Shown: piece after piece, positions 8,011 to 30,449 of the stretch
Position numbering within the stretch: position 1 is the first letter of the stretch
Layout: every line of letters starts with the position of its first letter
Assembly (NCBI RefSeq): GCF_000758705.1
Contig: NZ_CP009287.1
Location: forward strand, 3,658,001-3,722,000
Length of the DNA stretch: 64,000 nucleotides
Direction of reading: 5' to 3'
DNA from: Paenibacillus graminis
Lineage (GTDB): Bacteria; Bacillota; Bacilli; Paenibacillales; Paenibacillaceae
Notes under the pieces: generated by a model
Told to the model about the DNA's origin: nothing
Database searches by the model: none
What the model saw: the letters and a program-made list of their open reading frames with translations, nothing else
Position numbers and translations under genes: made by a program

Positions 8011-8542
8011 TCAATCCTTCCCGATATATTTCTCGAACGCTTCCATAATCTGCCGATCGGTTTCGTCCGGGTGCTCATAATAGCGGAAGTCGGTAATTTC
8101 CTGTCCCAATAACCCCTTATACCCATAATCGTTCAGCGTTTGGATCATGGACGCCAGCGGAAAGGTTCCATCGCCCCAAGCCAGGTGGCCGTAAGGTGTC
8201 CCATCGATGAAATGGAGGTGGACGATCGACTCGCCTGCCGTCTCAAACCACTGCTCCAACGTCTCTCCGGCAATGCCCATCGCCGTGGTGTCCACCATCA
8301 ACCGGAAGGCCGGAGAAGCGATTTCATCCAGCATTCTTTTAGCATCAGCGAGCGTGGTCACAATCTGCGATTCTTCCGGACGCAGCGCCTCCATGGCGAT
8401 CACCACACCTTCCTGTTCCGCTGCGTGTGCTTCCGGCGTAAACGCGCCGATCGTCAAGCCGCGGGCCGCCGCCTTGTGCCGGACGCTTGTGCAGTCAGTG
8501 AATATTCATTCCTGCAACTTGCTGACGCTGTATACCGGGCAT
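8011..8542 (-). pseudogene. Sugar-phosphate isomerase/epimerase with internal deletions
   Basis: The original start survives at 8542 behind GAAGGAG and reads MPGIQRQQVAGMNIH then TGA. After a junction another frame resumes with VRHKAAARGLTIGAFTPE, then jumps to AAEQEGVVIAMEAL and continues cleanly to the stop (MVDTTAMGIAGETLEQWF, IVHLHFIDGTPYGHLAWGDG). These are the beginning, an inner strand and the C-terminal half of an AP-endonuclease-2-fold (TIM barrel) isomerase of about 280 residues. At least two segments are gone, including part of the metal site, while the start, ribosome site and stop are retained. The open 148-codon C-terminal frame has no ribosome site of its own. Confidence 0.75.
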
Positions 8543-8858: not shown

Positions 8859-10721
8859 CTAAGCTTTTTTTACCGTGAAGTAAACTTGATAGGGTTCATA
8901 GCCGATATCACGAATTCTTCTCAGCTGAATTCCCGGGTCCTGATTTGCGGTCTTGAAGAAATAGCGCCAGCTGCCCCACTCACGTTCATTTTCCATAATT
9001 AATTCAGAGGCAACATCATCTAATGGTGTAAAGAGAATCCTCTCATTCTCACAAATACCAGCCAGTACCTCAGGACCAAAACGAAACGCTCCTGTCTGTT
9101 CGTCGTCCGGCAGAGGAATAAAACGGATGCCGACAGGCAGAATGATACTGATTCGATCGCCGTCCTTCCAATTCCGCAATATTTTATAGAATGTATGGTT
9201 ATCCGCAGATTTCCCATGAAACTGATCGTTCACATAGATGCTGGCTTCCGACATGATCCAGTCCGGAATCCGGAAATGGATGGCAAACTCATTAGATGTG
9301 CCCGTATGGACTACGAAATCATACTTTTTATAATTAGGCAGATTCTCGTGAAGCGCTGTAATCTCATTCAATTCCTGCTGTCCTGCAGTATTCGAAGAGT
9401 TCAGCATGCTTCCACTCATATGATCCTGAGCTTGATGAATCCGGACGTTCTCTCCGTTGATCTCTGTTGTCAGCTCAGAATGGAAATACTGGCATACAAA
9501 GACATCCTTATGATCCTGATAATAAATGCCTCTGTTTAATGCTGCATTTGCTTGTACCATAGTTCCGTGGCAGCAGAAGAAACTATCGGTCTCCGAACTC
9601 CAATCCTTCCTGAGGCCTGCCTTCATCGGCAGGAAATAAGTGAGCAGCCCTGATCCGGGATAACCGTGCTTATTGCCGGTCAGGTGATATTCCTGGTAAT
9701 AGGCTTGAGCCATAATACCGTTATACAAATTATATTCGATATACTGTGCATATGCCGGATCTGATGTATGCCGGAAGAGAAACTCTGCCAGACGAATCAT
9801 GTTATAAACCGTACAATGCTCTTGATTCTTATCACCAAGTCGTGCCTTGATCTTCATTTTCGGCATCCACACTTCACCGGCAGTATTTCCGCCAGTTGCC
9901 AGCGTCCCTCTCTCTGTGACAGCACATTTCCAGTAGGCAGTGACAATGTCCATCCATCTTTGTTCGCCGGTTACTTCGTAAGCTCTGGCACATCCGAGTA
10001 CTTCAGGAATGGTCGTGTTGGCATGCATGTTGGTCAGAGGGTCTTTATTTTCCAGTAACGGGTGAAAAAGTCTGCTGCGATAATAACGCTCCAGCAAGGC
10101 AGTATATTTATCATTCCCTGTAATATGGAGCAGGTCCGCCCAAGCTTCAAGCATACCGCCTGTCTCCATGTCCAGAATGTCATCGAATTTCTCTCTTGAG
10201 AAGGTGCTGCTCCATTCGACGAACCAGTCTGCAAAACGATCGGCTACTTCGAGCGCCTTTTGGCTGCCGGTAAATTGGTACATATCGACAAGTCCCATAA
10301 ATAACTTATGGATATTATACTGTGGAGCCCATATCCCTTTTCCTTTTGCGATCCAATGTAAATATTTCTCTGGAATAGGCCCAGCCCATTGTCCGCCGTT
10401 ATCTTCCTGGCATTCGGCGAGCTCGTCTAATATGAGATCCGCTTTGATTTTGAGTTCCAGATCACCCGTCTCATGAAACCGCATAGCCGCAGCAGACAGC
10501 CAATGTCCAAGAAAGTGTCCCCGGATCTGACAGACTGGCGTCTCCCATCCCCCATGTGCATCCTGAGGAATATCTCTGCCATGATATCTTCCTGCTTCTA
10601 CTTTATAGTTAAACAGGAGATTATCATTCGTCAGTTTCATTAAATACCGTCTGTTTGCTTCTTCCCTGCGTTTCAAATCACCATCATGAAGAACGACATG
10701 TTTGCCTTTCAGTTCTATCAT
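8859..10721 (-). CDS. GH127-family glycoside hydrolase (beta-L-arabinofuranosidase type)
   Basis: 620 aa, no signal peptide, so cytoplasmic. The all-helical barrel contains the metal/catalytic set known from Bifidobacterium HypBA1: E301-x-C303 (EHCTVYNMIRLAEF) and the CC pair C383-C384 (FFCCHGTMVQ), where the first cysteine of the pair is the nucleophile. E283 (GEVWMP) is a candidate acid/base. Upstream motifs (GGWETPVCQIRGHFLGHWLS, APQYNIHK) are also family-typical. It would release L-arabinofuranose (or a related sugar) from imported oligosaccharides. The start is ATG 10721 after AAGGGGCTG, a moderate site. It is separate from the TIM-barrel operon upstream but possibly served by the same sugar transporter. 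Confidence 0.85.
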   Translation of the reverse strand: MIELKGKHVVLHDGDLKRREEANRRYLMKLTNDNLLFNYKVEAGRYHGRDIPQDAHGGWETPVCQIRGHFLGHWLSAAAMRFHETGDLELKIKADLILDELAECQEDNGGQWAGPIPEKYLHWIAKGKGIWAPQYNIHKLFMGLVDMYQFTGSQKALEVADRFADWFVEWSSTFSREKFDDILDMETGGMLEAWADLLHITGNDKYTALLERYYRSRLFHPLLENKDPLTNMHANTTIPEVLGCARAYEVTGEQRWMDIVTAYWKCAVTERGTLATGGNTAGEVWMPKMKIKARLGDKNQEHCTVYNMIRLAEFLFRHTSDPAYAQYIEYNLYNGIMAQAYYQEYHLTGNKHGYPGSGLLTYFLPMKAGLRKDWSSETDSFFCCHGTMVQANAALNRGIYYQDHKDVFVCQYFHSELTTEINGENVRIHQAQDHMSGSMLNSSNTAGQQELNEITALHENLPNYKKYDFVVHTGTSNEFAIHFRIPDWIMSEASIYVNDQFHGKSADNHTFYKILRNWKDGDRISIILPVGIRFIPLPDDEQTGAFRFGPEVLAGICENERILFTPLDDVASELIMENEREWGSWRYFFKTANQDPGIQLRRIRDIGYEPYQVYFTVKKA

Positions 10722-11498: not shown

Positions 11499-12329
11499 CT
11501 ATTTTCGAATCGCTTTAAAAGACTCGGTCTGCTGTGTAATGCCCTTTTCCGCCGCAAAGCGCTCAACGCTCGACGCGCCGAAGAATCCATGGATGCCCTT
11601 CGCTCTCTTAATGACATAAGCCGCATCCTCCGGCTCGGCGATGGGACCACCGTGGCAAATAATCATGATATCCGGATTCACAGTAAGGCCTGCTTCAATA
11701 ATCGCCTCGATTCGCTCTACACAGTCGTCCAAGGTCAGCGCTGTTTTTGCACCAATCGTTCCTTTGGTCGTCAAGCCCATATGGGCAACCAAAATGTCAG
11801 CTCCCGCCTCTGCCATGGCTTTCGCCTGCGCAGGATCAAAAACATACGGAGTGGTCAGTAAATCCAGCTCATGGGCGGTACGGATCATTTCAACCTCCAG
11901 ATCGTACCCCATACCGGTCTCCTCCAGGTTTTGTCTAAACACTCCATCAATCAAGCCTACTGTAGGGAAGTTCTGAACACCGCTGAAGCCCTGCTCCTTC
12001 AATTGCTTCAGATATACCTCCATCACTCGAAAAGGATCGGTGCCGCATACCCCTGCCAGAACAGGCGTGTGCTTGACGACGGGCAGTACCTCGGCTCCCA
12101 TCTCAACTACGATTTGATTGGCATCTCCATAGGACAGCAAGCCCGCCAGTGAACCGCGGCCTGCCATTCTGTACCGGCCGGAATTGTATACAATCAACAT
12201 GTCTGCTCCGCCCGCTTCACTGCTCTTGGCCGTAATCCCCGTGCCTGCCCCGACACCGAGGAGAATCTTGCCCATCTTCACCTCAGCCTTGAATTTGGCT
12301 ATAATTTCTGATCTGGTTAACTTATTCAT
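11499..12329 (-). CDS. Phosphoenolpyruvate-hydrolase-like TIM-barrel protein (PF09370 type)
   Basis: 276 aa, whole-length for the family, behind AAGGAGGATATAG. Features: glycine-rich first turn ([20 protein letters not shown]), [63 protein letters not shown], and [15 protein letters not shown] near the C-terminus. The family is annotated as PEP hydrolase or TIM-barrel signal transduction protein; no reaction is firmly established to my knowledge. It follows the Tm-1-like gene by 21 bp. The same domain is repeated in the AraC fusion at 13676. Together with the Tm-1-like product it corresponds to the C-terminal half of tomato Tm-1. Confidence 0.85.
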
Positions 12330-12350
12330 TACTATATCCTCCTTATTGTG

Positions 12351-13568
12351 TTAGGAATTTGATGCATGCATGAGTGCAATCAGCTTTTGGGCTGCGGCCT
12401 CGGCAAAGACCGGATCGTTGATGGCGCAATCCATTTCAATCACTTCAACCCTCGAGCGGTCGACATGCTGACGCAGGGTATCGAACAGCATTTGGTCCTC
12501 CTCCGGGCCGTAGAACGGCTGCCCTTCCACATCAATTGCGGAAATGCCCCTAAGCGGCAGCAGCAGCACTGTGCTTTCCTTGGCCATGTTCAGCTTCTCC
12601 GCAAGCTTCCTGCCGATCTGTTCATTCTCTGCCACTGTCGTTCTCATCAGGGTAACGGTCGGATTATGCTGATAAAACGTATGATCCTTGAATTTCTCGG
12701 GTACGGTATCTGCCGGTCCAAAATTGCACATATCCAAGGCGCCTACCGAGACTACCTGCGGAATGCGTTTGCGGCCTGCTGCCTCCAAGCGGTGTGGTCC
12801 CGCATTCAAAACACCGCCGATGATCTCATCCGCCCACTCGGTCGTCGTCAAGTCCAATACCCCTTCAATGAAACCCGCGTCGACCAACGCCTCCATCGAC
12901 TGCCCGCCGATGCCCGTGGCGTGGAACACAAGCACCTCGTAGCCCCGCTCCTCCAAATATTTTCTTGCCGCTGTCACACAGGGCGTCGTTACTCCGAACA
13001 TCGTGGCCGCAACGAGCGGCTTCTTCTCCGGTTGATGCGTATGCTCAAACTTAAGCATTCCCGCCAGCGCAAATAAGGCATTTGTAAATATTTTCGTAGA
13101 AATCGAATTCAATCCTGCTACATCCACCACAGACGGAATCATGACAATATCGCTCGTGCCTACGTATGGAGCTGTATTTCCAGACGCAACAGTCGATACC
13201 ATCACCTTCGGAACGCCAATCGGCAGGGCTCTCATGGCCGGTGCGACCAGTGAGGTTCCACCCGTGCCCCCAAAGGAAAGGATTCCGTCAAATTTGCCCT
13301 GCTTGTACAACTGGGGTACCAGCTTCATCAGCCCATTGGACAAGATCTCTGTAGCCAAAGCCCGATCCTTTCTTGACGCAAGCTCCTCCATATCCATGCC
13401 TGCGGCGCTGGCGACCTCCCGGTTGGACACATCCGGAACAAAGGCCGGCTCGAATACACCCGTATGAATCGTTAAGGTCCCCAGCCCAAGCTCTTCTGCA
13501 ATTCTCTTGATGTAAAGGTACTCCTCACCTTTGGTATCAAATGTTCCAGCTATTGCGATGGTCTTCAT
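12351..13568 (-). CDS. Tm-1-like ATP-binding protein (UPF0261)
   Basis: 405 aa. I choose ATG 13568 because AGGAGGCAGC precedes it with ideal spacing and the protein then begins at the conserved TIAIAGTFDTKGEEYLYIK. Further family landmarks: SFGGTGGTSLVAPAMRALPI, PKVMVSTVASGNTAPYVG (nucleotide-contact loop), ATMFGVTTPCVTAARKYLEE, VFHATGIGGQSMEALVDAG, DLTTTEWADEIIGG. The domain is that of the N-terminal, ATP-binding half of the tomato virus-resistance protein Tm-1, and of bacterial UPF0261 proteins whose chemistry is unassigned. It is co-transcribed with the TIM-barrel gene downstream and the TIM-barrel/AraC gene upstream (107 bp). Probably cytoplasmic. Confidence 0.85.
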   Translation of the reverse strand: MKTIAIAGTFDTKGEEYLYIKRIAEELGLGTLTIHTGVFEPAFVPDVSNREVASAAGMDMEELASRKDRALATEILSNGLMKLVPQLYKQGKFDGILSFGGTGGTSLVAPAMRALPIGVPKVMVSTVASGNTAPYVGTSDIVMIPSVVDVAGLNSISTKIFTNALFALAGMLKFEHTHQPEKKPLVAATMFGVTTPCVTAARKYLEERGYEVLVFHATGIGGQSMEALVDAGFIEGVLDLTTTEWADEIIGGVLNAGPHRLEAAGRKRIPQVVSVGALDMCNFGPADTVPEKFKDHTFYQHNPTVTLMRTTVAENEQIGRKLAEKLNMAKESTVLLLPLRGISAIDVEGQPFYGPEEDQMLFDTLRQHVDRSRVEVIEMDCAINDPVFAEAAAQKLIALMHASNS

Positions 13569-13675
13569 CTGCTGCCTCCTCATATGAATCATTTAGAACA
13601 GTGCTCAATCACAGGTAGCGAGCGCTATAGCTTCATCATACGGGTCCTGTCCAACTATGGAAACGCTTTTATGTT

Positions 13676-14875
13676 CTATGTTCTTGTGTTTAGGTTAGAT
13701 CGGAACAGCTTGGGAGAGCAGCCCTTCAGCTTTTTAAACATTTTGCTGAATTGGGCATAATCCGGATACCCTACCATCGCTGCCACCTCAGATAATTGAA
13801 GCTGCGGCGCCTGGAGCAGCGTCGCGGCTTTATTGATGCGAAAGTTTACAAGATAGGTCTGAAAACTGCAGCCCACCTCCTTTTTAAACATGCTGCTCAA
13901 ATAGCTGCGCGAAACATGAGCAACCTTGGCGAGATCCGAAAAAACAATTTCATCGCTGTAGTTTTGGGCCACATATTCCTTGACAAAGTCGATATAATCA
14001 TAATGCCTGGTGATGCCGTTCAGCATTTTGACCATAAAATCGTCCTCATCCAGCTTGCCCAGACGCTTAAAATCACGGGTGATTGCCGTAATCGACTTCT
14101 CGGATGGAATTCGTTCAAAGGCAGAACCGCCAATATAGCCCATAATGTCTGTGTTGTTGCTGTACATGTACTGGACATCGACCGGTGTCTTTACCGGACC
14201 GCCGTAAACCATCTTGATCACATCCGGCTGAAGCTGCCCGCAGGCAGCGAAAATGCGCAGCGCCTTTGCTTTGGCTGCCTCTAAGGATACAACCTTCCGC
14301 GCACCCAATAATCCGCCTTCAGTCAGGCCAAGATGAGCACAGATCACATCTGCCCCCGCCCCGATCATTTGGTTCGCTTGAAGCTCGTCAAATACGAAGG
14401 CCACCGTAAACAACTCCTGCTGATGGGCCAGGCGTATGGCCTCAACCTCTCTGTCATAGCTGATTCCGTCTTCCTCCAGAGCCTCTCTGAATAATCCGTC
14501 CATCAGGCCGACCGTCGGATAATTATTGACTCCCGAAAAACCTCTGCCCTTGATTTCCGCAATATAGCTGGCCATTTCTCTGGTCGGATCATTCGCATTC
14601 AGTCCAAAGAGCACGGGAGCATGCCTCACCAGCGGCACAATTTCTCTTGACGCAAAGTCCATCACCATATCATTACTGTTGCAGAACGGTAAAAAGCCCG
14701 CCAAAGAGCTTCTCCCCATCTGGCGAAACTTGCCGGAGTTCAGCATTAATATAAAGTCCGCTCCGCTCTGAGCAGCATATTTGGCTGTAATCCCCGTGCC
14801 TGTCGAGACGCCAATGATGTGATTACCCTCGTGCAGCTGTGATTGAAGTCGCTCCAGTATGGCTGTTCTGTTCAA
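13676..14875 (-). CDS. PEP-hydrolase-like TIM barrel fused to an AraC-type DNA-binding domain
   Basis: 399 aa from the TTG at 14875, which has AAGGAG 9 nt ahead; upstream codons to 14938 belong to the GH2 stub frame. Residues ~1-270 match the 276-aa protein at 11499 motif for motif (GVSTGTGITAKYAAQSGADF, LNSGKFRQMGRSSLAGF, GVNNYPTVGLMDG, ADVICAHLGLTEGGLLGARK, MVYGGPV). Residues ~295-399 are two AraC helix-turn-helices (VAHVSRSYLSSMFKKEVGCS, VAAMVGYPDYAQFSKMFKKL). I infer a regulator whose sensor is the same fold as the enzyme it likely controls, binding that enzyme's substrate or product. The N-terminal barrel appears complete, so residual catalysis is possible. Confidence 0.85.
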   Translation of the reverse strand: MNRTAILERLQSQLHEGNHIIGVSTGTGITAKYAAQSGADFILMLNSGKFRQMGRSSLAGFLPFCNSNDMVMDFASREIVPLVRHAPVLFGLNANDPTREMASYIAEIKGRGFSGVNNYPTVGLMDGLFREALEEDGISYDREVEAIRLAHQQELFTVAFVFDELQANQMIGAGADVICAHLGLTEGGLLGARKVVSLEAAKAKALRIFAACGQLQPDVIKMVYGGPVKTPVDVQYMYSNNTDIMGYIGGSAFERIPSEKSITAITRDFKRLGKLDEDDFMVKMLNGITRHYDYIDFVKEYVAQNYSDEIVFSDLAKVAHVSRSYLSSMFKKEVGCSFQTYLVNFRINKAATLLQAPQLQLSEVAAMVGYPDYAQFSKMFKKLKGCSPKLFRSNLNTRT

Positions 14876-15060
14876 GCTCTCTCGCTCCTTATCTCTGCAG
14901 GAATCTGACGGCTGAAGGCATTCTGACCGCTGCTCCATAGCCCGTTATCGCCAGCACGTTCGTCATCAGATTCGAACTCCCATGTTCCATTCAGATGCTG
15001 CCAGTCTGGCCTTACGAATTGCGGACGCGGATATGCTGTCCGCAGGATGGATGAAGTCAT
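14872..15060 (-). pseudogene. N-terminal stub of a GH2 glycosidase
   Basis: 62 codons from ATG 15060. AYPRPQFVRPDWQHLNGTWE and the following D-D-x-x-A-G match the start of the intact GH2 protein at 28680 (NYPRPQFVRSQWLDLNGEWD). The frame then shifts into unrelated residues and stops at 14872, overlapping the TIM-barrel/AraC start by 4 bp. The sugar-binding, immunoglobulin-like and catalytic domains (~500 residues) are gone. Position directly after the YesM kinase is where a glycosidase of this locus would be expected, so the locus has lost it. Confidence 0.75.
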
Positions 15061-15104: not shown

Positions 15105-16949
15105 TTACTCTTCCAATGGATAATCGTCCAACGTATTACGGTCATTTAACAGCTTCGGAATCTTCACGGTCACTGTCGTCCCATGGCCGGACCGGCTTTC
15201 TATGGCGGTCCCGTAACCCTCTCCGAACATCAGCCGGAGCCTGTGATGGATATTCGTCAGCCCAATGCCTTGTGCTGTTTGGCCTGCTGACGCTTGCTCC
15301 GGGTACTCCAAGCCCAGCTTGGCCTGGAGGGCGGCCAGCTCCTCCGGCTCCATTCCCCTCCCTGTATCTGTAATACAGAAGCACACATCCCCATGTGCAT
15401 CCATGCTTCCGGTAACCAGGAGCCGCCCGCCTTGGTCCATCCGCTCCAGCCCGTGGTAGACGGAATTCTCCACAATGGGCTGGAGGATCATCTTGGGCGT
15501 TTGCATATCCATCAGCCTGTCCTCCACATCAAGCTCCATGGAGAATTTATTCTCATAACGGATTAAGATAATCTTCATATAAGCCTGAATACAGTCAATT
15601 TCTTCCTTGACCTGTACAAGATCATCCTTCTTGATGCTGTAACGGAAGATTTTAGACATGCAAAACGTAATCTGCGCAATCTCTCTGCTTCCGTATTCCA
15701 ATCCGATGCTGCTGATGCAATTCAGCGTATTATAGAGGAAATGGGGATTGATCTGGCTTTGCAGGGCAGAAAACTCCGCCTGCTTCTGGCCCAGCTCAGA
15801 TTCGTACAATCTGGCCTGGGTATTGAACATATCTCTGGCCATTTCCTCCATTTCATCCATCATCCGGTTAATGTCGCAGGCCAGCAAGCCTACCTCATTG
15901 GTAAACCGGACTTTAATGCGGAAGCCCATATCCCGCCTCCCCACCTTCTTCATATCCATAACAAGTCCCATCAACGGACGCATCAGATTATTCATGAAGA
16001 AACTGCCGGTTAAGAGCATGGTTAGAATAATGCCAATGCCTACGATAATGCTGACCTTCCGCATGGGCGTCATATCCGCGGTCAGTTCACGCACCGGAAT
16101 CATACTAACCACCCGCCACCCATCTGCTTGCTCCAAACCTTTGACCTGGACAAGAATGTCTTCCCCGTCGATGGTTGCTTTTACGCCATTAAGCAAGATG
16201 TCCTTATCCATAGACAGAACATCTCTGAACAACGTGCCCCGGGCATTAGAATTCGTGGATGCAATCACCTCGTCCTGGCTATTCAGAATGTACAAGGTAG
16301 AGCCCTGCGTTAATTCCGTATTTTCTACCAGCCCCTGCAGCTTGTCCATATTGACCATCACGGTGCAGTAACCTGTAATCTGGGAGAAATAGATTCCCCC
16401 AATGTTCTCCACAATCGGCGCGATATAGAAGAACTGTTCCGTACCTGTCCGGTCGTCCTTCAGAATCGTGGTGAACATCCCCTGCTTCCGCAGCAAGGGG
16501 TCATCCTTATATTTCTGAATAAAAGTTTCATAGGGGTTGATGAAGAAAATATCGCCGCTTGCCGAGTCCAGACTGTGCAGCCGCCTTCCCTTGATGTCGT
16601 TAATGACGATGCCGTTCACATAGGAATTGAAGGATCTCATATATTCCATAAGATCCAGTGCATACGGACCGCTGTCGAACGCTCTTTTGTAGTCATCATC
16701 CACCACGGAGAATTCCTGAATCAGCTTGCTGTTGACCGCAATGCCGGTGCTGACCCGGATATCATTGAACACAGAATCAATCTTGCGGCGGGTCTGCTCA
16801 ATCATCTGGTTGCCGTAAGTGGCAGCTCGCTTCTGGGTTAAATTAGAGAAGCTATGGAAGAAATATATTTCCATGACGGTAAATATAACGATCGAGAAAA
16901 AAAAGATAAGCCATATCTGATGTTTTAATTTCACTTTACTGGTCTTCAT
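15105..16949 (-). CDS. YesM-type sensor histidine kinase
   Basis: 614 aa. Membrane helix at ~12-32, a large extracellular sensor (dCache-like) at ~35-295, second helix at ~298-320, HAMP to ~372. The His_kinase phosphoacceptor is H403 in SQINPHFLYNTLN. The HATPase part has PIVENSVYHGLE and DTGRGM, then GQTAQGIGLTNIHHRLRLMF. The start follows GGAGCGG. This class senses extracellular sugars or binding-protein complexes and phosphorylates the partner YesN-like regulator, encoded 20 bp upstream. It should control the ABC transporter at 18.5-22.1 kb. Confidence 0.92.
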   Translation of the reverse strand: MKTSKVKLKHQIWLIFFFSIVIFTVMEIYFFHSFSNLTQKRAATYGNQMIEQTRRKIDSVFNDIRVSTGIAVNSKLIQEFSVVDDDYKRAFDSGPYALDLMEYMRSFNSYVNGIVINDIKGRRLHSLDSASGDIFFINPYETFIQKYKDDPLLRKQGMFTTILKDDRTGTEQFFYIAPIVENIGGIYFSQITGYCTVMVNMDKLQGLVENTELTQGSTLYILNSQDEVIASTNSNARGTLFRDVLSMDKDILLNGVKATIDGEDILVQVKGLEQADGWRVVSMIPVRELTADMTPMRKVSIIVGIGIILTMLLTGSFFMNNLMRPLMGLVMDMKKVGRRDMGFRIKVRFTNEVGLLACDINRMMDEMEEMARDMFNTQARLYESELGQKQAEFSALQSQINPHFLYNTLNCISSIGLEYGSREIAQITFCMSKIFRYSIKKDDLVQVKEEIDCIQAYMKIILIRYENKFSMELDVEDRLMDMQTPKMILQPIVENSVYHGLERMDQGGRLLVTGSMDAHGDVCFCITDTGRGMEPEELAALQAKLGLEYPEQASAGQTAQGIGLTNIHHRLRLMFGEGYGTAIESRSGHGTTVTVKIPKLLNDRNTLDDYPLEE

Positions 16950-16969
16950 GGCTTACCGCTCCGATCCGA

Positions 16970-18412
16970 TTAGCTTTTTCTGAATTTGGTGGGCGTCATC
17001 CCGCAATGCTTCTTGAACACTTTATTGAAATAATAATAATCCACATACCCGGACTTAACGGCAATTTGCTCAATGGACAGGTCCGTCTGCTTCAGCAGCT
17101 CCCGGGCTTTCCTGATCCTCAGCTCTGCCACATATTCGGAGAAGGTTCTGCCCAGATTGTTCTTGAACAACTGACAGCAATACACCTGATTAATGAAGAA
17201 CTGGACAGACAAATCCTTCAGATACAATTTCTGCTCAAAGTTCCGGTCGATATAGGCGACCATCCGGTTGAAGCAGGATAGGATGTCCCCTTCCTGCAAG
17301 GAACGGCTTCTGCCTTGCCGGATGACCGTGAGGACGTCATTCAAGAAGCTGCACAGAGACGCAAAGTCTTCGAACCGTTCCTTGATCTCGGAATAATTGA
17401 GGAATTCCAGCTCCATGTCCCTCAGTTCCTCAGCATATGCGTTTATAAGCATCCCTACAGACTGATTCCATAAGTAGACCACCTCACCCATGCCCAGATG
17501 ATGGTTCCTGAAGTATGCCTGCAGCCCTGTAATGTACACATCCATATCGTCAAGCGAATTCCCGTGAATGATCGTATAGAGACCATCAATGCAAGGTTTC
17601 ATGAGATGAAACTTCGGCTCATAGTGAACGGCTTCTGCCGTCTGCTCCAGAAAAATATGCGAGGCGGACAGGTCAGCTTCTTTAATCAGCTTGCTCACCT
17701 GCTGAAGCTGGCTGGTGATGCTGCTGATGCCCACACTTTGGATTCCCGTCTCCGTCAGCACCCCTTCATCCGGGGTCCACTCCAAGCCGCTCAGATGCTC
17801 AGCCATCCGTACGACGAGCAGCTTTCGGGACCCGGCTTCAACCTCCACTGCAGTTATGTTCCTGCCCTCCAGAGACAGCAGCTTCCTGATATCCTTAATG
17901 TCACTCCGCAAATAGACCGCAAATACCTGGTAATAGCATACATCCATGCTGGCCGGAAGCGGCAGGAACCGCCTGATCTCGGTCTCATCCCCCGAGGTCA
18001 GCGCATCCAGAAGAAGGTGATTGCGCGTTGCGCTTCTCCGGGAGAAGTGAGTGGCCAGCTTCGCAATGAATGTATCCGCCATATCGACATCCAGAGGCTT
18101 CAGGAAATAATCGAGCGCCCCGTAGCGTATCGCTTCCTGGGCGTATTCAAATTCCCCATATCCGCTTACGATGACAAACTCAGTGTTCAGCCCTTGCGCT
18201 TTGGCCCGCTTCATCAGATCCAGCCCGGAGATATCCGGCATCCGGATATCCGTAAACACCAAGTCCGGCTGCTGTGTACACATGGCCTCCCACGCTTTGT
18301 AAGCGCTTGTAAATTGTCCTGTGATTTCAAAACCGTATTTCTCCCAGTCAAAGGCGTTCTGAATTCCTCTTATCGCCCATGACTCATCATCTACAATCAT
18401 GACCTTGTACAT
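16970..18412 (-). CDS. YesN-type response regulator with AraC output
   Basis: 480 aa behind AGGAGGCGACCC. Receiver domain ~1-125 with VDDE at 7-10 and phosphoacceptor D55 (TDIRMPDISGL). A long middle region (~130-370) of the type found in YesN proteins follows. The C-terminal AraC pair is at ~380-480 (DLSVQFFINQVYCCQLFKNN, AVKSGYVDYYYFNKVFKKHC, then GMTPTKFR). It is paired with the YesM-type kinase downstream and presumably activates the permease/binding-protein operon directly upstream in response to the imported saccharide. Confidence 0.92.
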   Translation of the reverse strand: MYKVMIVDDESWAIRGIQNAFDWEKYGFEITGQFTSAYKAWEAMCTQQPDLVFTDIRMPDISGLDLMKRAKAQGLNTEFVIVSGYGEFEYAQEAIRYGALDYFLKPLDVDMADTFIAKLATHFSRRSATRNHLLLDALTSGDETEIRRFLPLPASMDVCYYQVFAVYLRSDIKDIRKLLSLEGRNITAVEVEAGSRKLLVVRMAEHLSGLEWTPDEGVLTETGIQSVGISSITSQLQQVSKLIKEADLSASHIFLEQTAEAVHYEPKFHLMKPCIDGLYTIIHGNSLDDMDVYITGLQAYFRNHHLGMGEVVYLWNQSVGMLINAYAEELRDMELEFLNYSEIKERFEDFASLCSFLNDVLTVIRQGRSRSLQEGDILSCFNRMVAYIDRNFEQKLYLKDLSVQFFINQVYCCQLFKNNLGRTFSEYVAELRIRKARELLKQTDLSIEQIAVKSGYVDYYYFNKVFKKHCGMTPTKFRKS

Positions 18413-18482
18413 GGGTCGCCTCCTGAACCTATGAATTCATCGTTCTAATAGAACCAGGGTCCAAGGACAGCAAACGAAATTA

Positions 18483-18519
18483 GGATAAACCACGGTGAAG
18501 AATAATCAGTGGTTTATCC
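18483..18519 (-). terminator. Hairpin between the binding-protein and regulator genes
   Basis: GGATAAACCAC / GTGGTTTATCC is a perfect 11-bp stem with a 15-nt loop. The weak tail (TAATTTC on the minus strand) fits partial termination or 3' protection of the abundant binding-protein mRNA rather than a full stop. Confidence 0.55.
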
Positions 18520-18534
18520 GGATTCCATGATGAC

Positions 18535-20139
18535 CTATTGTTTGGCTGTGACTTCCCTGTAATTCTTCACATTCTCCTCTTGAACAGCTTTACCGCCGGC
18601 GTCCATATATTCTTTAACCAGCTTATCGTACAGGGCGTCGAACTCTGCCGGCTTGGCAACGATCAGCCTGTCAATCATTTGCTTGTTCATGTCGCCCAGG
18701 GTTTTGCCGTACTTGATATTGGCTTCGTTCGGTACGCCATAGTTGAAGCTGCTATAGCCGTCCGTTGTATTGATTTTATAGGAATCGGTAGCCAGCTTCT
18801 CGTAACTCTTGTCCCCGGCTGCCAGCGCTGCGGCATATGTTCTGACATTCTTGTCGGTATCACCCAGCTCAGCGCCGTTTACAATCACCGTATAATCCAT
18901 ATTCAAATTGCTCATTTGCATATTCTCGCCGGTCTGTGCAATCCCGTGCGGGATGCCGTCTACCAGCTTGTGGTTAACGCCTTCTTCACCGAACTGCAGG
19001 AAGAACATCACTTCCGGGTCAGCCATCCAGTTCAGATATTTAATCGCCAGCTCTGCGTTCTTGCTGCTCTTGGGAATGAAAGAGAATATTCCATTCTCAT
19101 TATATACCTCTTTGAGGTATTTGCCTTCGTCATTTTTGAAGGTATCAACCGGAACATAGTTGGCCTCCGGCGCATTTTGCTTTAGCGGAACACGGATTTT
19201 TTGCGTCATCGGATAATCCCAGTTGGCAGCATAGAAGCCTACCTTGCCGTTGGTTACATCGGCATCCGCCTGCTTGGTTGTTTTGTCCAGGGCAAAATCA
19301 GGGCTGATCAGCTTCTCATTGTACAGCTTGTTCAGCCATTGGTAAGCCTCCTTGTTACCGGGCTTCAGCCAGTTTGTCGTGGTGACGAATTCCTCCTCCG
19401 ACATGGTCTTCCAGAACGATTGCACCAGGTTGCCGAAGGTGTAGTTCATACCGGCAGCCGCTGTAGCCCAAGGGATGACGCCGTTCACATTACCGGGGTT
19501 CTTGTCACGGAAGGCTACCAGCGTCTCATACAATTCGTCCCGGTTCGTCGGAACCGGCAGGCCCAGCTTATCCAGCCAATCCTTGCGGATGAACATTCCG
19601 TTCCAGGCCAGCAGGGTCCGCTTGCCCGGGATGGAGACCTGTTTGCCGTCATATTTTCCGTAGGAGAGAACCTTCTCGCCCAGGTACGACTTCAATTGCT
19701 GGCCGTGCTGTTCCAGCAATTCGTCCAGCGTATAGAGTCCCTTGCTTTTGGCGAAGCGGGTGACCAGTGTCCCGTCGTAGGTGAAGGAAATATCAGGGGC
19801 CTGGTTCGCGGCCATTAATACATTCAGCTTGTCGACTTCCTGGGATCGGGGGACAGGAACAAATTCTACAATGGCGTTATTGGGCTTGCCGAATTTCTCA
19901 TTGACGTATTGGGTCCATTTGTTGTTGTTCAAATCCGGCTGTCCCTGAACCCCGCGGTCGAACACTTCTACCGTCAAGGTTACCGGAGCACCGGAAGGGG
20001 CCCCAGAGGCCGCCGTTGATGCCTCTGACGACGATGTCTCCCCGCTCTTGTTGCCATTCCCTCCACAGCCTGCCGCAACACCGGCCAGAAGCGTCATACT
20101 GAACAGAATTGCTGCTGTTTTCTTTATGCCCGTACTCAC
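18535..20139 (-). CDS. Sugar ABC transporter solute-binding lipoprotein
   Basis: 534 aa from GTG 20139, chosen because AAAGGGTGG precedes it and it puts a lipoprotein signal at the N-terminus (TAAILFSMTLLAGVAAGC, lipidated Cys ~25), followed by a Ser/Gly/Ala-rich linker. The mature part is a large type-1 binding protein of the LplA class (VEFVPVPRSQEVDKLNVLMA; RTLLAWNGMFIRKDWLDKLG; FIPKSSKNAELAIKYLNWMA). It sits outside the membrane and delivers oligosaccharide to the two permeases encoded upstream. No ATPase is encoded here, as usual for Lpl-type systems that share a general MsmX-like ATPase. Substrate unknown; arabinose-containing glycans fit the GH127 neighbour. Confidence 0.9.
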   Translation of the reverse strand: MSTGIKKTAAILFSMTLLAGVAAGCGGNGNKSGETSSSEASTAASGAPSGAPVTLTVEVFDRGVQGQPDLNNNKWTQYVNEKFGKPNNAIVEFVPVPRSQEVDKLNVLMAANQAPDISFTYDGTLVTRFAKSKGLYTLDELLEQHGQQLKSYLGEKVLSYGKYDGKQVSIPGKRTLLAWNGMFIRKDWLDKLGLPVPTNRDELYETLVAFRDKNPGNVNGVIPWATAAAGMNYTFGNLVQSFWKTMSEEEFVTTTNWLKPGNKEAYQWLNKLYNEKLISPDFALDKTTKQADADVTNGKVGFYAANWDYPMTQKIRVPLKQNAPEANYVPVDTFKNDEGKYLKEVYNENGIFSFIPKSSKNAELAIKYLNWMADPEVMFFLQFGEEGVNHKLVDGIPHGIAQTGENMQMSNLNMDYTVIVNGAELGDTDKNVRTYAAALAAGDKSYEKLATDSYKINTTDGYSSFNYGVPNEANIKYGKTLGDMNKQMIDRLIVAKPAEFDALYDKLVKEYMDAGGKAVQEENVKNYREVTAKQ

Positions 20140-20257
20140 GTTAACCACCCTTTCATTCCCCTGTTTGTTGAGATCATCCATGCTGTAGATCTTGTGCAAC
20201 ACTACATTTCCGCTTCTATCCGTCCGGGAATCCCCCCTTCACTCGGATCTGCCGCCC

Positions 20258-21154
20258 TCAGCCCTTAATCGCTCCGGTCATTACCCCATCTACGAAATAC
20301 TTCTGGAGCTTCGGATAGATCAGCAGAATCGGAACGGTTGTAAACATCACGCTCGCTGCTTTCAGGGATTCAGGCACGATGAAGGAGCCGATACTTCCTT
20401 CTCCCCCCTGCTGGCTATCAAGCTGCTGATTGGCCGAAATGATCTGGTACAGCTTGAGCTGCATAGGATACAGCTCTTTCTTCGTAATATAGAACAAGGC
20501 ATCCTGGAAGCCGTTCCACCGGTCCACTGCATAGAAGAGGCTTAATGTGGCAATGGAAGGCAGCGAGAGCGGAAGCACAATTCGGATGAGAATGCCCAGA
20601 TCCGAACACCCGTCAATGGACGCTGATTCCTCCAGACTCTCAGGAAGCGAGGTGAAGAACGTTTTCAGGATGATCAGGTTGAAGACGCTCATGGCGCCCG
20701 GCAGAATCAGACTCCATACCGTGTTCATCATACCGAGGTTTTTAACCAGAATATAGGAAGGAATCAGTCCGCCGCTGAAATACATCGTGAAGACGAGGGC
20801 TGACAGAATAAAATTTCTTCCCCACAGCCGCTTCTTCGTTAACGGATACGCCGCGCAAATGGTCAGGAACATACAGACGACCGTGAAGACAATTGTAAGC
20901 ACAATACTGTATCCCAGCGTATACAGCATATCCATATCGCTCAGAATGGTTTTGTACGTTTCAATTGTGAAATCTACCGGCCACAACCCTACCTTCTGGG
21001 CCACAATCGCTTCGTTAGAGCTTAGTGAAAGCGCAATCATATATAGGAACGGAACAATACATGTGAAGGACAAGGCCACAATGAATACTATAATCGCAAT
21101 ATCGGCTACACTCATTTTTTTCCCTGGACGCACTTTCTTCATCAGCTTCACCAT
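20258..21154 (-). CDS. Sugar ABC transporter permease (LplC/YtcP type)
   Basis: 298 aa, six predicted membrane helices. The EAA loop that contacts the ATPase is ESLEESASIDGCSDLGILIR, followed by IVLPLSLPSIATLSLFY. The C-terminus ends in the family-typical VPILLIYPKLQKYFVDGVMT and GAIKG. The ATG at 21154 follows GGTGAGG and overlaps the preceding permease gene by 7 bp. It forms the inner-membrane channel with the LplB-type subunit for uptake of an oligosaccharide. Confidence 0.93.
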   Translation of the reverse strand: MVKLMKKVRPGKKMSVADIAIIVFIVALSFTCIVPFLYMIALSLSSNEAIVAQKVGLWPVDFTIETYKTILSDMDMLYTLGYSIVLTIVFTVVCMFLTICAAYPLTKKRLWGRNFILSALVFTMYFSGGLIPSYILVKNLGMMNTVWSLILPGAMSVFNLIILKTFFTSLPESLEESASIDGCSDLGILIRIVLPLSLPSIATLSLFYAVDRWNGFQDALFYITKKELYPMQLKLYQIISANQQLDSQQGGEGSIGSFIVPESLKAASVMFTTVPILLIYPKLQKYFVDGVMTGAIKG

Positions 21155-22098
21155 ATTCCATCCTCACCTAATTTCTTCGCGATATAGTTGGCGCCTACGA
21201 GCAGGGTCAGACCGACCACGGATTGGAACAAGCCTACCGCTGTAGCCTGGGAGAAGTCTCCCGAACTGATGCCCACTCTATACACGAAGGTACTGATTAC
21301 ATCGGAGTATTCACTGACCAGTGAATTCCCCATCACGAAGGGGCGGTCGAACCCGATGGACACCATCCGGCCAATCTGAAGGATAAGCAGAATGTTGATG
21401 GTCGGCTTAATGCCGGGCAGGGTAATATGCCACATTTTGCGAAGCCTGCTGCACCCGTCCATATCGGAGGCCTCATACAATTCCTTATTGATTCCGGTGA
21501 TCGCCGCCAGATAAATGATGGTCCCCCAGCCGATATTCTGCCAGACGCCAACGAAGATGTAGGTGATCAGCCAGGGGATTTTCTGCGACAGGAACTCAAT
21601 CTTCTCTAGTCCGAGGGCAGCTATGAAATGATTGACCATCCCGCTGTTCGAGAACATCAGGTATACAATCCCCCCAATGATCACCCAGGACATAAAGTGC
21701 GGCAGATACAGGACGGTCTGGGTTATTTTCTTGAATCTGGCCTGTCTCACTTCATTAAGCAGAATGGCCAGTAGAATCGGTGCCGGAAATCCCGCGATCA
21801 GATCCAGAACATTCAGCACCAGGGTATTCTTCAGTGCACGATAGAAGCTGTCCTGCTGGAAAATAAAACGGAACACATCAAGTCCCACCCACTCGCTACC
21901 CCGTATGCCTTCAAAAATGTTGTAATCCTGGAAGGCCATAATCAAGCCGTAGATTGGAGCATATTTAAAAATGGCAATATAAGAAATAGGCAACAGCAAA
22001 AGGGCATACAGAAGGGCATCTCTTTTGATTCGGAGTAGAAAAAGTTTTCCTCTTTTGATCCCGACATGGTTTCGTTGACTGTCTAAAACCGCTTTCAT
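21148..22098 (-). CDS. Sugar ABC transporter permease (LplB/YteP type)
   Basis: 316 aa from ATG 22098, which is 9 nt after GGAGGG; the ATG at 22107 touches that site and is less likely. Six membrane helices. Family landmarks: LLPISYIAIFKYAPIYGLIM, the EAA loop (KELYEASDMDGCSRLRKMWH then ITLPGIKPT), and the end GANYIAKKLGEDGIW. First gene of the transporter operon; it overlaps the LplC-type gene. A TGAAAGCGGTTTTA stretch at its 5' end resembles a CcpA site but can be explained by coding. Confidence 0.92.
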   Translation of the reverse strand: MKAVLDSQRNHVGIKRGKLFLLRIKRDALLYALLLLPISYIAIFKYAPIYGLIMAFQDYNIFEGIRGSEWVGLDVFRFIFQQDSFYRALKNTLVLNVLDLIAGFPAPILLAILLNEVRQARFKKITQTVLYLPHFMSWVIIGGIVYLMFSNSGMVNHFIAALGLEKIEFLSQKIPWLITYIFVGVWQNIGWGTIIYLAAITGINKELYEASDMDGCSRLRKMWHITLPGIKPTINILLILQIGRMVSIGFDRPFVMGNSLVSEYSDVISTFVYRVGISSGDFSQATAVGLFQSVVGLTLLVGANYIAKKLGEDGIW

Positions 22099-22274
22099 TT
22101 CTCTCATCCCTCCGGCTGTAATCAGGAGCGCTCATGTCCTTCATTATACCTGGCGGAGCAAATAAGAAAATGTAATCCCTTAAATGAATTTGGTAATAAC
22201 TTAAAATCGCCTTAAGTTCGGCCCGTATGAAAATTCTTACCAATCCTTTTGGAGACGTTCTTAAGTCAGTTTGC

Positions 22275-28679: not shown

Positions 28680-30449
28680 CTATCCCAAATTAACCGCCCG
28701 GATCTTCTCCAGCGCTACTTTCGGTTTTCGGTCTTCGGTAAGCAGGCCGTTAACCTCATGCTGCACGTCCGTAATCTGCGTATAACAGTAGCCGGAAATA
28801 AACGGAATGGCTTTAATCGCTCCGGTTATGCTGCTGAATCGCTCCAGGAAAGCTTCCTCGTTATCCACCTGATTGCCGTAACCCCAGCCATGCTCGCTCC
28901 GGAAAGCAATCCCCCCGAACTCGCTGATGATTATCGGTTGGCCTTTATAACTGTAGCCGTGGGCGAACGCAAATTTCCACTCGTTGTACGTGCCGCTGCT
29001 CCCCGTAACCGAGTCTTTATCCTTGTATCTTTCGTACAAATCTTCGCCCCGCTCCACATAATCATGAAGAGTCAAAATATCAGAAACAGTGTGCTCCCAT
29101 CCATCATTGGTGATGACTGGACGATTAGGATCGATGGATTTGGTCAAATGATAAATGCTTTCTGTAAAATTTTGCTGCGTGACGTCATGGATAATATTCT
29201 GAATGCCCCAGGATTCGTTAAAGGGCACCCAGGTAATAATGCAGGGGTGATTGTACTGCTGCCGCACAACCTCCAGCCACTCTTTGGTAAAACGTTCAAC
29301 GGCCTCATCGTTATATTCATAAGCGGCCGCCATTTCGGACCAGACCAGCATACCTTTGACATCGCACCAGTACAGGAAGCGGGCGTCTTCGATTTTCATA
29401 TGCTTGCGCAAACCGTTGTAGCCCATCTCGGCAATCGCCTCGATATCTTGAATCAGCGCTTCTTCGGACGGAGGCGTCAGATGACTTTCGGTCCAGTAGC
29501 CCTGATCCAGGATCAGTCTTTGGTATAGGGGAATATTGTTCAACAGGATTTGGCCGTCTCTAACCGAGATTTTGCGCATGCCGAAATAGGAGCCCACCCG
29601 GTCAATCTCCCGTTCTCCTTCATACAGCACAAACTCCACGTCGAACAGATTGGGGTTGCCCGGCGACCAGAGGTTTTGCAGCCAAGGTCCGTTGATGCCG
29701 CTCATCATGCCGGTTTCCACCGTCAGCCAGGCCCTGTCCGCCGAAAGGCTCAGCTTTCTTACCATTTCCCCCTTAAACGTAATTTCCGTCTCCAGCCGGA
29801 GATCCTTTTTGTTTGTTGTCCCGTTAAACCGGAAATCAAACCGGATCATTTGGCGGTCGATGTCAGGCGTCATTTTCACCATATCCAGGCGGGTTTCATG
29901 GACATGTTCGAGCCAGACGCTTTTCCAAATGCCTGTCGTCTGCACATAAAATGAATCATGATTCCGGCCGGCCCAGCGCTGCTTGCCCCGGGGCTGCAGA
30001 CAGCTGTCGCTGTCTTCCACCTTCAGCACAATCTCATTTTCGGCGCCTTGCCTGAGCAGGCTGGTAATATCAAAGGAAAAACGGGAGTATGCCCCTTCAT
30101 GTTCCCCCGCAAAACTGCCGTTCACCCAGCAGGCAGCTTTATAATCCACACCTTCAAAATGCAGGATCGTTTGTTTCCCTTCCGCCTCGGGGGTAAGTGT
30201 CACTTTTCTGCGGTACCAGATCTGCGGATGGAACTTCTCGTCACCAATCCCGCTCGCCCCAGTTTCATAGGTAAACGGAACGTTTATTTTTTGCGCAGCC
30301 GGAAAGTCGTCCATATAGCGTTCGGCAACTCCGGCTTTTACATCATCGAAGCTGAAATCCCACTCCCCGTTCAGATCCAGCCACTGGCTCCGTACAAATT
30401 GGGGTCTCGGATAGTTTTTCATATAAAATTTCGTAGCTGCTTCGGTCAC
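28680..30449 (-). CDS. GH2-family glycosidase (beta-galactosidase/beta-glucuronidase-like)
   Basis: 589 aa if it starts at GTG 30449 (AGAGGA ~11 nt ahead); an ATG at 30422 is possible but has no ribosome site. It runs in the family order: sugar-binding jelly roll (YPRPQFVRSQWLDLNGEWDF; HFEGVDYKAACWVNG; DSCLQPRGKQRW), an immunoglobulin-like middle, then the TIM barrel with acid/base Glu in WVPFNESWG and nucleophile Glu in IIISEFGGIAF. No signal peptide, so it acts on imported sugars. Divergent from an AraC regulator at 30586. Homologous gene pieces at 7669 and 14872 show that at least one more GH2 copy existed nearby. Confidence 0.88.
   Translation of the reverse strand: MTEAATKFYMKNYPRPQFVRSQWLDLNGEWDFSFDDVKAGVAERYMDDFPAAQKINVPFTYETGASGIGDEKFHPQIWYRRKVTLTPEAEGKQTILHFEGVDYKAACWVNGSFAGEHEGAYSRFSFDITSLLRQGAENEIVLKVEDSDSCLQPRGKQRWAGRNHDSFYVQTTGIWKSVWLEHVHETRLDMVKMTPDIDRQMIRFDFRFNGTTNKKDLRLETEITFKGEMVRKLSLSADRAWLTVETGMMSGINGPWLQNLWSPGNPNLFDVEFVLYEGEREIDRVGSYFGMRKISVRDGQILLNNIPLYQRLILDQGYWTESHLTPPSEEALIQDIEAIAEMGYNGLRKHMKIEDARFLYWCDVKGMLVWSEMAAAYEYNDEAVERFTKEWLEVVRQQYNHPCIITWVPFNESWGIQNIIHDVTQQNFTESIYHLTKSIDPNRPVITNDGWEHTVSDILTLHDYVERGEDLYERYKDKDSVTGSSGTYNEWKFAFAHGYSYKGQPIIISEFGGIAFRSEHGWGYGNQVDNEEAFLERFSSITGAIKAIPFISGYCYTQITDVQHEVNGLLTEDRKPKVALEKIRAVNLG

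Follow-up and report, generated by a model that had tools for sequence, protein, structure and literature searches.

The closest described relatives of the system considered here are the plant Tm-1 proteins. Tomato Tm-1, a virus-resistance protein, consists of an N region (M1-K431) and a TIM-barrel part (T484-E754) (PMC5214455). Its two halves, a UPF0261 protein and a barrel, occur in land plants, fungi, archaea, and bacteria, and their genes co-occur, co-evolve (Mirrortree 0.886) and became fused in plants (Yang 2016, PMC5028733). COG5441-COG5564 is among the high-ranking co-occurrence pairs of fungi (PMC8963296), and in brown-rot fungi a UPF0261 gene is late up-regulated alongside sugar-related genes (PMC6867892). 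The pairing itself is thus already published. Here, we describe a bacterial form of it from Paenibacillus graminis, located at positions 11499-14875 (minus strand) of a 64,000-nucleotide stretch of NZ_CP009287.1 (the window), in which a barrel gene, a UPF0261 gene and a regulator gene that joins a second barrel to an AraC-type DNA-binding domain lie together (the triad). While the pair is known, the dead-enzyme signature of the regulator, with its fixed residue change, and the exchange of its output module (AraC vs. sigma-54) are undescribed as far as our literature searches show, as are the wider gene contexts with aldolases, dehydrogenases, and a RuBisCO-like protein accompanied by a phosphatase. 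These searches, made by family name and accession with subscription papers mostly outside their coverage, returned nothing published on either the fused regulators or the triad in bacteria, and the words “sigma” and “AraC” are absent from the searched text of PMC5028733. Depositors already use the name “AraC family transcriptional regulator with IGPS-like TIM-barrel domain.”

The three genes and the regulator barrel

The triad comprises the following features, the starts of the regulator and the UPF0261 protein being set from the lengths of homologues:

11499..12329, minus strand: TIM-barrel enzyme candidate, PF09370, 276 amino acids, with His226 (Pfam)
12351..13568, minus strand: UPF0261 or Tm-1-like protein, PF06792 and PF23189, about 405 amino acids (Pfam; longest open reading frame, ORF, to 13592)
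13676..14875, minus strand: regulator, PF09370 barrel and AraC-type HTH_18, about 399 amino acids (Pfam; longest ORF to 14938)

Pfam and structure matches bear out the initial annotation of these domains, with all triad domain scores far exceeding the curated cut-offs. The unfused barrel (11499-12329) scores 431 bits against PF09370 (cut-off 33.8) over residues 8-274 and profile positions 1-267 of 267, and it matches the structure 2p10 (Mll9387; E 5.6e-119). The UPF0261 gene (12351-13592) scores 206.4 bits for PF06792 and 326.2 bits for PF23189 (cut-off 27 each), and 637 bits for the subfamily NF002674 (cut-off 335); its product matches the tomato Tm-1 structures 3wry (E 4.5e-93) and 3wrw (E 5.9e-93). 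As the UPF0261 gene and the unfused barrel are two separate genes, 22 bp apart, their original description as the two-gene form of the Tm-1 halves agrees with the tomato domain layout (PMC5214455). The regulator (13676-14938) scores 359 bits for PF09370 over residues 27-292 (profile 2-266 of 267), and its C-terminus carries the two-helix-turn-helix DNA-binding domain of AraC/XylS type (HTH_18, 76.9 bits, residues 336-414), with structural matches to YesN and AraC DNA-binding structures. AraC_binding, the cupin-like ligand domain that is typical but not obligatory in AraC/XylS proteins, has no Pfam match in the regulator, the N-terminus being PF09370 instead. The same combination of PF09370 and HTH_18 is found in all 120 homologues listed of 1050. 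The whole P. graminis genome holds two PF09370 genes and one PF06792 gene, and no more. “PEP_hydrolase-like” is an annotation name for PF09370, and our literature searches found no phosphoenolpyruvate or phosphonopyruvate hydrolase assay for the family.

What distinguishes the two barrels is best seen by comparing 110 unfused, 109 AraC-fused and 27 sigma-54-fused rows, 23 of the last being retained (the long rows P0280, P0284, P0286, and P0290 were left out, three of them having been seen misplaced in a first tree). Near-identical rows are kept in these counts and some genomes appear twice (e.g., L058 and L105 share a contig). Position 226 is His in 110/110 unfused barrels, Tyr in 109/109 AraC-fused barrels (Tyr245 of the longest ORF in the window regulator) and Glu in 23/23 well-aligned sigma-54-fused barrels; with the four dropped rows included, the last group has Glu in 23, Gln in 3 and Asp in 1 of 27. 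In the AraC-fused barrels, Tyr162 to Phe and Ala252 to Gly are fixed switches as well as His226 to Tyr. The invariant columns lost in both regulator groups are Gly27, Gly68, His226, and Ala252, among which His226 offers the sole reactive side chain. An additional set of 26 unfused barrels keeps His226 in 25 cases, the two barrels of the RuBisCO-like clusters described below among them, and Tyr occupies the position in 4/4 sigma-54-fused Bacillota barrels. The sole exception, L187_9, is an unfused barrel with Cys226, a degenerate end and no UPF0261 partner. Its locus (genome G127) holds a regulator and this degenerate barrel next to KDPG-aldolase-type and KduI/IolB-type genes.

Most invariant columns are nonetheless retained, with 33 of the 44 that are invariant among the 110 unfused barrels conserved across ≥95% of the AraC-fused rows. 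The loss of His226 against this background is read as catalysis lost and pocket kept, and the barrel of the regulator is, judging from these alignments, probably a catalytically dead sensor. If the regulator is an inactivated copy of the enzyme, the ligand that triggers transcription through its barrel should be the metabolite. As His226 separates enzyme from sensor in nearly every row examined, it also offers a clean mutational test.

Order, movement, and output modules

PF09370 scores above cut-off in 24 of 100 related genomes and PF06792 is found in the same 24; one additional relative (G040) has a sub-cut-off PF09370 match. Among 299 genomes sampled from the phylum Bacillota, PF09370 is present in 27 and PF06792 in 48, with 25 of the 27 PF09370 genomes also carrying PF06792 (exceptions G127 and G368). 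The fetched loci of relatives (n = 23) follow the order regulator, UPF0261 gene, barrel in 17 cases, and UPF0261 gene then barrel without a fused regulator in six. In one of these six, L076, the two genes are separated by six others, among them Gfo/Idh/MocA, xylose-isomerase-like barrel, ABC (ATP-binding cassette) importer and cupin genes. When named genomes were searched with the regulator alignment, 153 stretches were confirmed. The 80 best, all Bacillota loci, were retained; 76 of them show the full order, and the set spans Paenibacillus, Clostridium, Tepidibacter, Fusibacter, Sporomusa, Pelosinus, Sporosarcina, Listeria, Pontibacillus, Christensenella, and others. Because these loci were picked by their regulator, they show the constancy of the order and not the frequency of the triad. 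The gene-order check proposed with the initial annotation thus came out in its favor; the expected domains are matched, and the genes of relatives are linked rather than scattered. We consider it very probable that the three genes form one functional unit. In two loci, L068 (G042) and L095 (P. radicibacter), the regulator frame is broken into two, and in Christensenella L138 the three genes are scattered in a sugar-type cluster with Dak1, transaldolase-type, PFK, Fe-ADH, MmgE/PrpD, and ribose-type importer genes.

The triad may also move as a unit. All three window proteins are closer to those of Clostridium neonatale (L100) than to those of Paenibacillus faecalis, dendrobii and lautus (L148, L140, and L160, respectively), with identities of 79% vs. 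67-69% for UPF0261, 86% vs. 79-80% for the barrel and 68% vs. 52-54% for the regulator, which suggests, at the level of sequence, that they were transferred together. Over 86 loci, the pairwise distances of one protein track those of the others (correlations 0.84, 0.77, and 0.89; permutations ≤0.20; no species-tree control), and neighbors vary and are mostly unrelated in 104 loci, the top cluster being generic ABC ATPases (21/104). In Sporosarcina (L151, L152, L153, and L158), a window-type AraC regulator (52-54% identical) precedes a pair of another subfamily (51-52% identity to the window for UPF0261 and 64% for the barrel) with a cupin gene after it. Such a mosaic suggests one ligand common to both subfamilies.

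The output module attached to the regulator barrel is exchangeable. In the alphaproteobacterial loci L162, L164, and L171, PF09370 is fused to Sigma54_activat, an AAA lid and a Fis-type HTH, and a sigma-54-type barrel query returned PF00158 on 119/120 matches listed. Barrel fusions of 602-609 amino acids also occupy the first-gene position before UPF0261 and barrel in Bacillota (G324, G215, G247, and G177), and L173 and L177, the two Bacillota fusions checked by domain search, are sigma-54 activators. Two trees, in which near-identical rows were thinned, part unfused from fused barrels (support 100/98 in one and 99/95 in the other, the latter leaving out E_L171 and six N_ rows), and AraC-fused barrels group together (95/94 in one and 99/97 in the other). 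The trees, read as unrooted, do not show a single sensor lineage. The four Bacillota sigma-54 rows fell in two places, but the approximately unbiased test did not reject one clade (p 0.451), so two independent sigma-54 fusions are not claimed. Short partial PF09370 proteins also lie near the pair at L162:3936-4526 and L164:4164-4883 (profile 56-175 and 55-193 of 267). Elsewhere, TetR-type regulators (Vibrio, Serratia, R. johnstonii, and S. meliloti) or a GntR type (CIAT894) are annotated beside the pair, so a barrel sensor is only one of several solutions.

A proposed operon and its alternatives

After three tomato entries, the fourth-best structure for the UPF0261 model is 9mpy, which by its title is Saro_1862 of Novosphingobium aromaticivorans with bound acetovanillone. 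Its homology to the UPF0261 protein is full-length (E 5.8e-62; 32% identity in structural alignment). Acetovanillone catabolism in N. aromaticivorans begins with the kinase MarK (PMC13101465). If MarK is Saro_1862, UPF0261 includes an ATP-dependent small-molecule kinase, which would fit the phosphatase neighbors of the RuBisCO-like loci. By this analogy, we lean toward the UPF0261 protein being a kinase. The role of both domains in bacteria had initially been called unassigned; this still holds in that we found no paper assigning a reaction to the bacterial pair, but a divergent relative has now been solved with acetovanillone.

We propose, with a probability of roughly 0.4, that the triad is a self-contained, transferable operon serving one small molecule. 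The UPF0261 protein would most likely act as an ATP-dependent small-molecule kinase, and the unfused barrel would act in the same pathway on the phosphorylated or further modified product, a lyase or hydrolase being its likeliest, if tentative, activity. The regulator, a dead copy of this barrel, would bind the ligand of the barrel and relay the signal to its AraC DNA-binding domain. If the kinase role is true in bacteria, it also suggests what plant Tm-1-like proteins do without a virus.

The substrate can only be guessed at from gene contexts, which bring to mind sugar-acid- or plant-aromatic-like hydroxy/keto compounds. Among plasmid regions (12 fetched of 239 matching records), the UPF0261 gene is adjacent to the barrel or one gene off in 11/12, the exception being Salinibacter L170. 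By annotation, the pair has cupin genes as direct neighbors in L162, L163, L165, L166, and L167, and carbohydrate ABC genes nearby in L163, L165, L167, L171, and L172. Nine Bacillota loci (L175, L178-L184, and L208, by ORF starts, with Pfam applied to L175 and L178) carry a RuBisCO-large-like gene with the pair. Against the MtnW-type NF007095 (cut-off 409), the L178 protein reaches 412 bits, and against TIGR03332 (cut-off 514) it reaches 378; a 2-phosphosulfolactate-phosphatase-type gene was confirmed in L178 and L186. The presence of an MtnW-like protein alongside a phosphatase may point to a diketo-phosphate pathway. In L178-L184 and L208, the RuBisCO-like and UPF0261 genes are in most cases flanked by two unfused barrels, several have the phosphatase-type gene, and L178 also contains a glycerol-3-phosphate antiterminator-type gene. 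Loci with UPF0261 only hold creatininase, class II aldolase, xylose-isomerase-like, and Zn-dehydrogenase genes (L193) or a DHDPS-type aldolase and a 2-hydroxyacid dehydrogenase (L195), other loci of these kinds being judged from ORF starts. DUF1097 genes adjoin the pair in the clostridium Caproiciproducens (L142) and on a Vibrio plasmid (L168), and their product is possibly a shared transporter or membrane partner.

Several observations weigh against the proposed operon. Saro_1862 is divergent, with FGVTTP, TTTE, and DMxNFGP, invariant in the UPF0261 proteins of the pair, differing there; function transfer is therefore a guess, and the substrate or even the chemistry may differ. Its identity with MarK is inferred and not confirmed, as no text consulted gave a locus tag. 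The pair is not strictly obligate, with 23 of the 48 UPF0261 genomes of the Bacillota set lacking a barrel, and the triad is mostly without its own transporter or pathway genes, which is odd for catabolism. Finally, the 330-base stretch preceding the regulator, compared across 20 related loci, shows no conserved operator, its conservation being solely ribosome-site-like and coding, and promoter and terminator scans gave counts close to those of shuffled sequence.

The shortage of transporters would be explained if the triad served housekeeping detoxification or repair of an internally made toxic or misformed metabolite, with placement free and the module moving as a unit among variable, mostly unrelated neighbors. 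Its patchy presence (24/100 relatives) and the clear catabolic neighbors of other lineages make this unlikely. It is rather improbable that the barrel of the regulator is active, a second enzyme using Tyr-based or other chemistry that would couple turnover to transcription as a trigger enzyme: the columns it retains include acidic and arginine positions, but His226 is lost in every regulator row, and its replacement by two residues (Tyr and Glu) in two regulator groups is expected of loss and not of one new chemistry.

The initial annotation linked the triad to a YesMN-controlled sugar importer, which would supply the substrate that the triad degrades. The flanking features are as follows:

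8859-10721: GH127-type protein, on the other flank of the triad (Pfam)
14875..15060, minus strand: 62-codon open frame between the YesM stop and the regulator, overlapping the regulator start (no Pfam family)
15105-16949: YesM-like (Pfam)
16970-18412: YesN-like (Pfam)
18535-20202: solute-binding protein (Pfam)
20258-22107: permeases (Pfam)

The triad lies on the strand of the importer and directly behind it, and the alphaproteobacterial plasmid pairs often adjoin carbohydrate ABC importers by annotation. However, in the fetched loci (flanks of up to about 10 kb), only G050 (L071/L210) shows orthologues of YesN, YesM, and the solute-binding protein. There, the importer and YesNM genes follow the arrangement of window 15156-22208 collinearly (92.9% identity) and the triad (87.3% identity) is about 3 kb away, on the opposite side. 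Importer-type permeases lie within 6 kb of the triad in 12/104 loci (the union of neighbor clusters 2 and 3), and the widest neighbor cluster is the generic ATPases noted above. The importer link is local, and linkage as a general trait was rejected. The step from sugar importer to catabolic role is thus weak, yet other contexts do support catabolism. The 62-codon frame, unexplained, also separates YesM from the regulator, and this importer-fed reading is again improbable. That frame, which we take from its motif to resemble a truncated glycoside hydrolase start (Pfam without match), shares 64% identity with window 30330-30413 over 28 residues and is possibly a rearrangement scar outside triad function. 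Downstream of the GH127-type gene, 8011-8457 (minus strand) encodes a 148-amino acid PF01261 protein covering profile positions 113-243 of 249, i.e., the second half alone of a sugar isomerase/epimerase-like gene.

Least probable is that the regulator senses a partner protein, its dead barrel and the barrel enzyme competing to dock on the UPF0261 kinase, in which case the operon would report free or substrate-loaded kinase through a titration circuit built from a duplicated complex subunit with an exchangeable output (AraC or sigma-54 AAA+).

Comparison with known systems

Plant Tm-1 and Tm-1-like proteins combine UPF0261 and a TIM barrel in one polypeptide, whereas P. graminis has separate genes and a regulator, and the comparison implies no virus-related role for the bacterial pair. 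Saro_1862 shares the UPF0261 fold and family with the window protein but differs in its motifs. Mll9387 of M. japonicum (2p10) is an ortholog-like PF09370 barrel that likewise adjoins a UPF0261 gene; unlike the window, its operon includes a cupin gene, a Gfo/Idh/MocA gene and a barrel-sigma-54 regulator. MocR/GabR-type regulators also place an enzyme-like sensor domain, of another fold, on a DNA-binding domain. In contrast to these, the system described here brings enzyme, partner, and sensor copy together in one operon and is found with two output modules.

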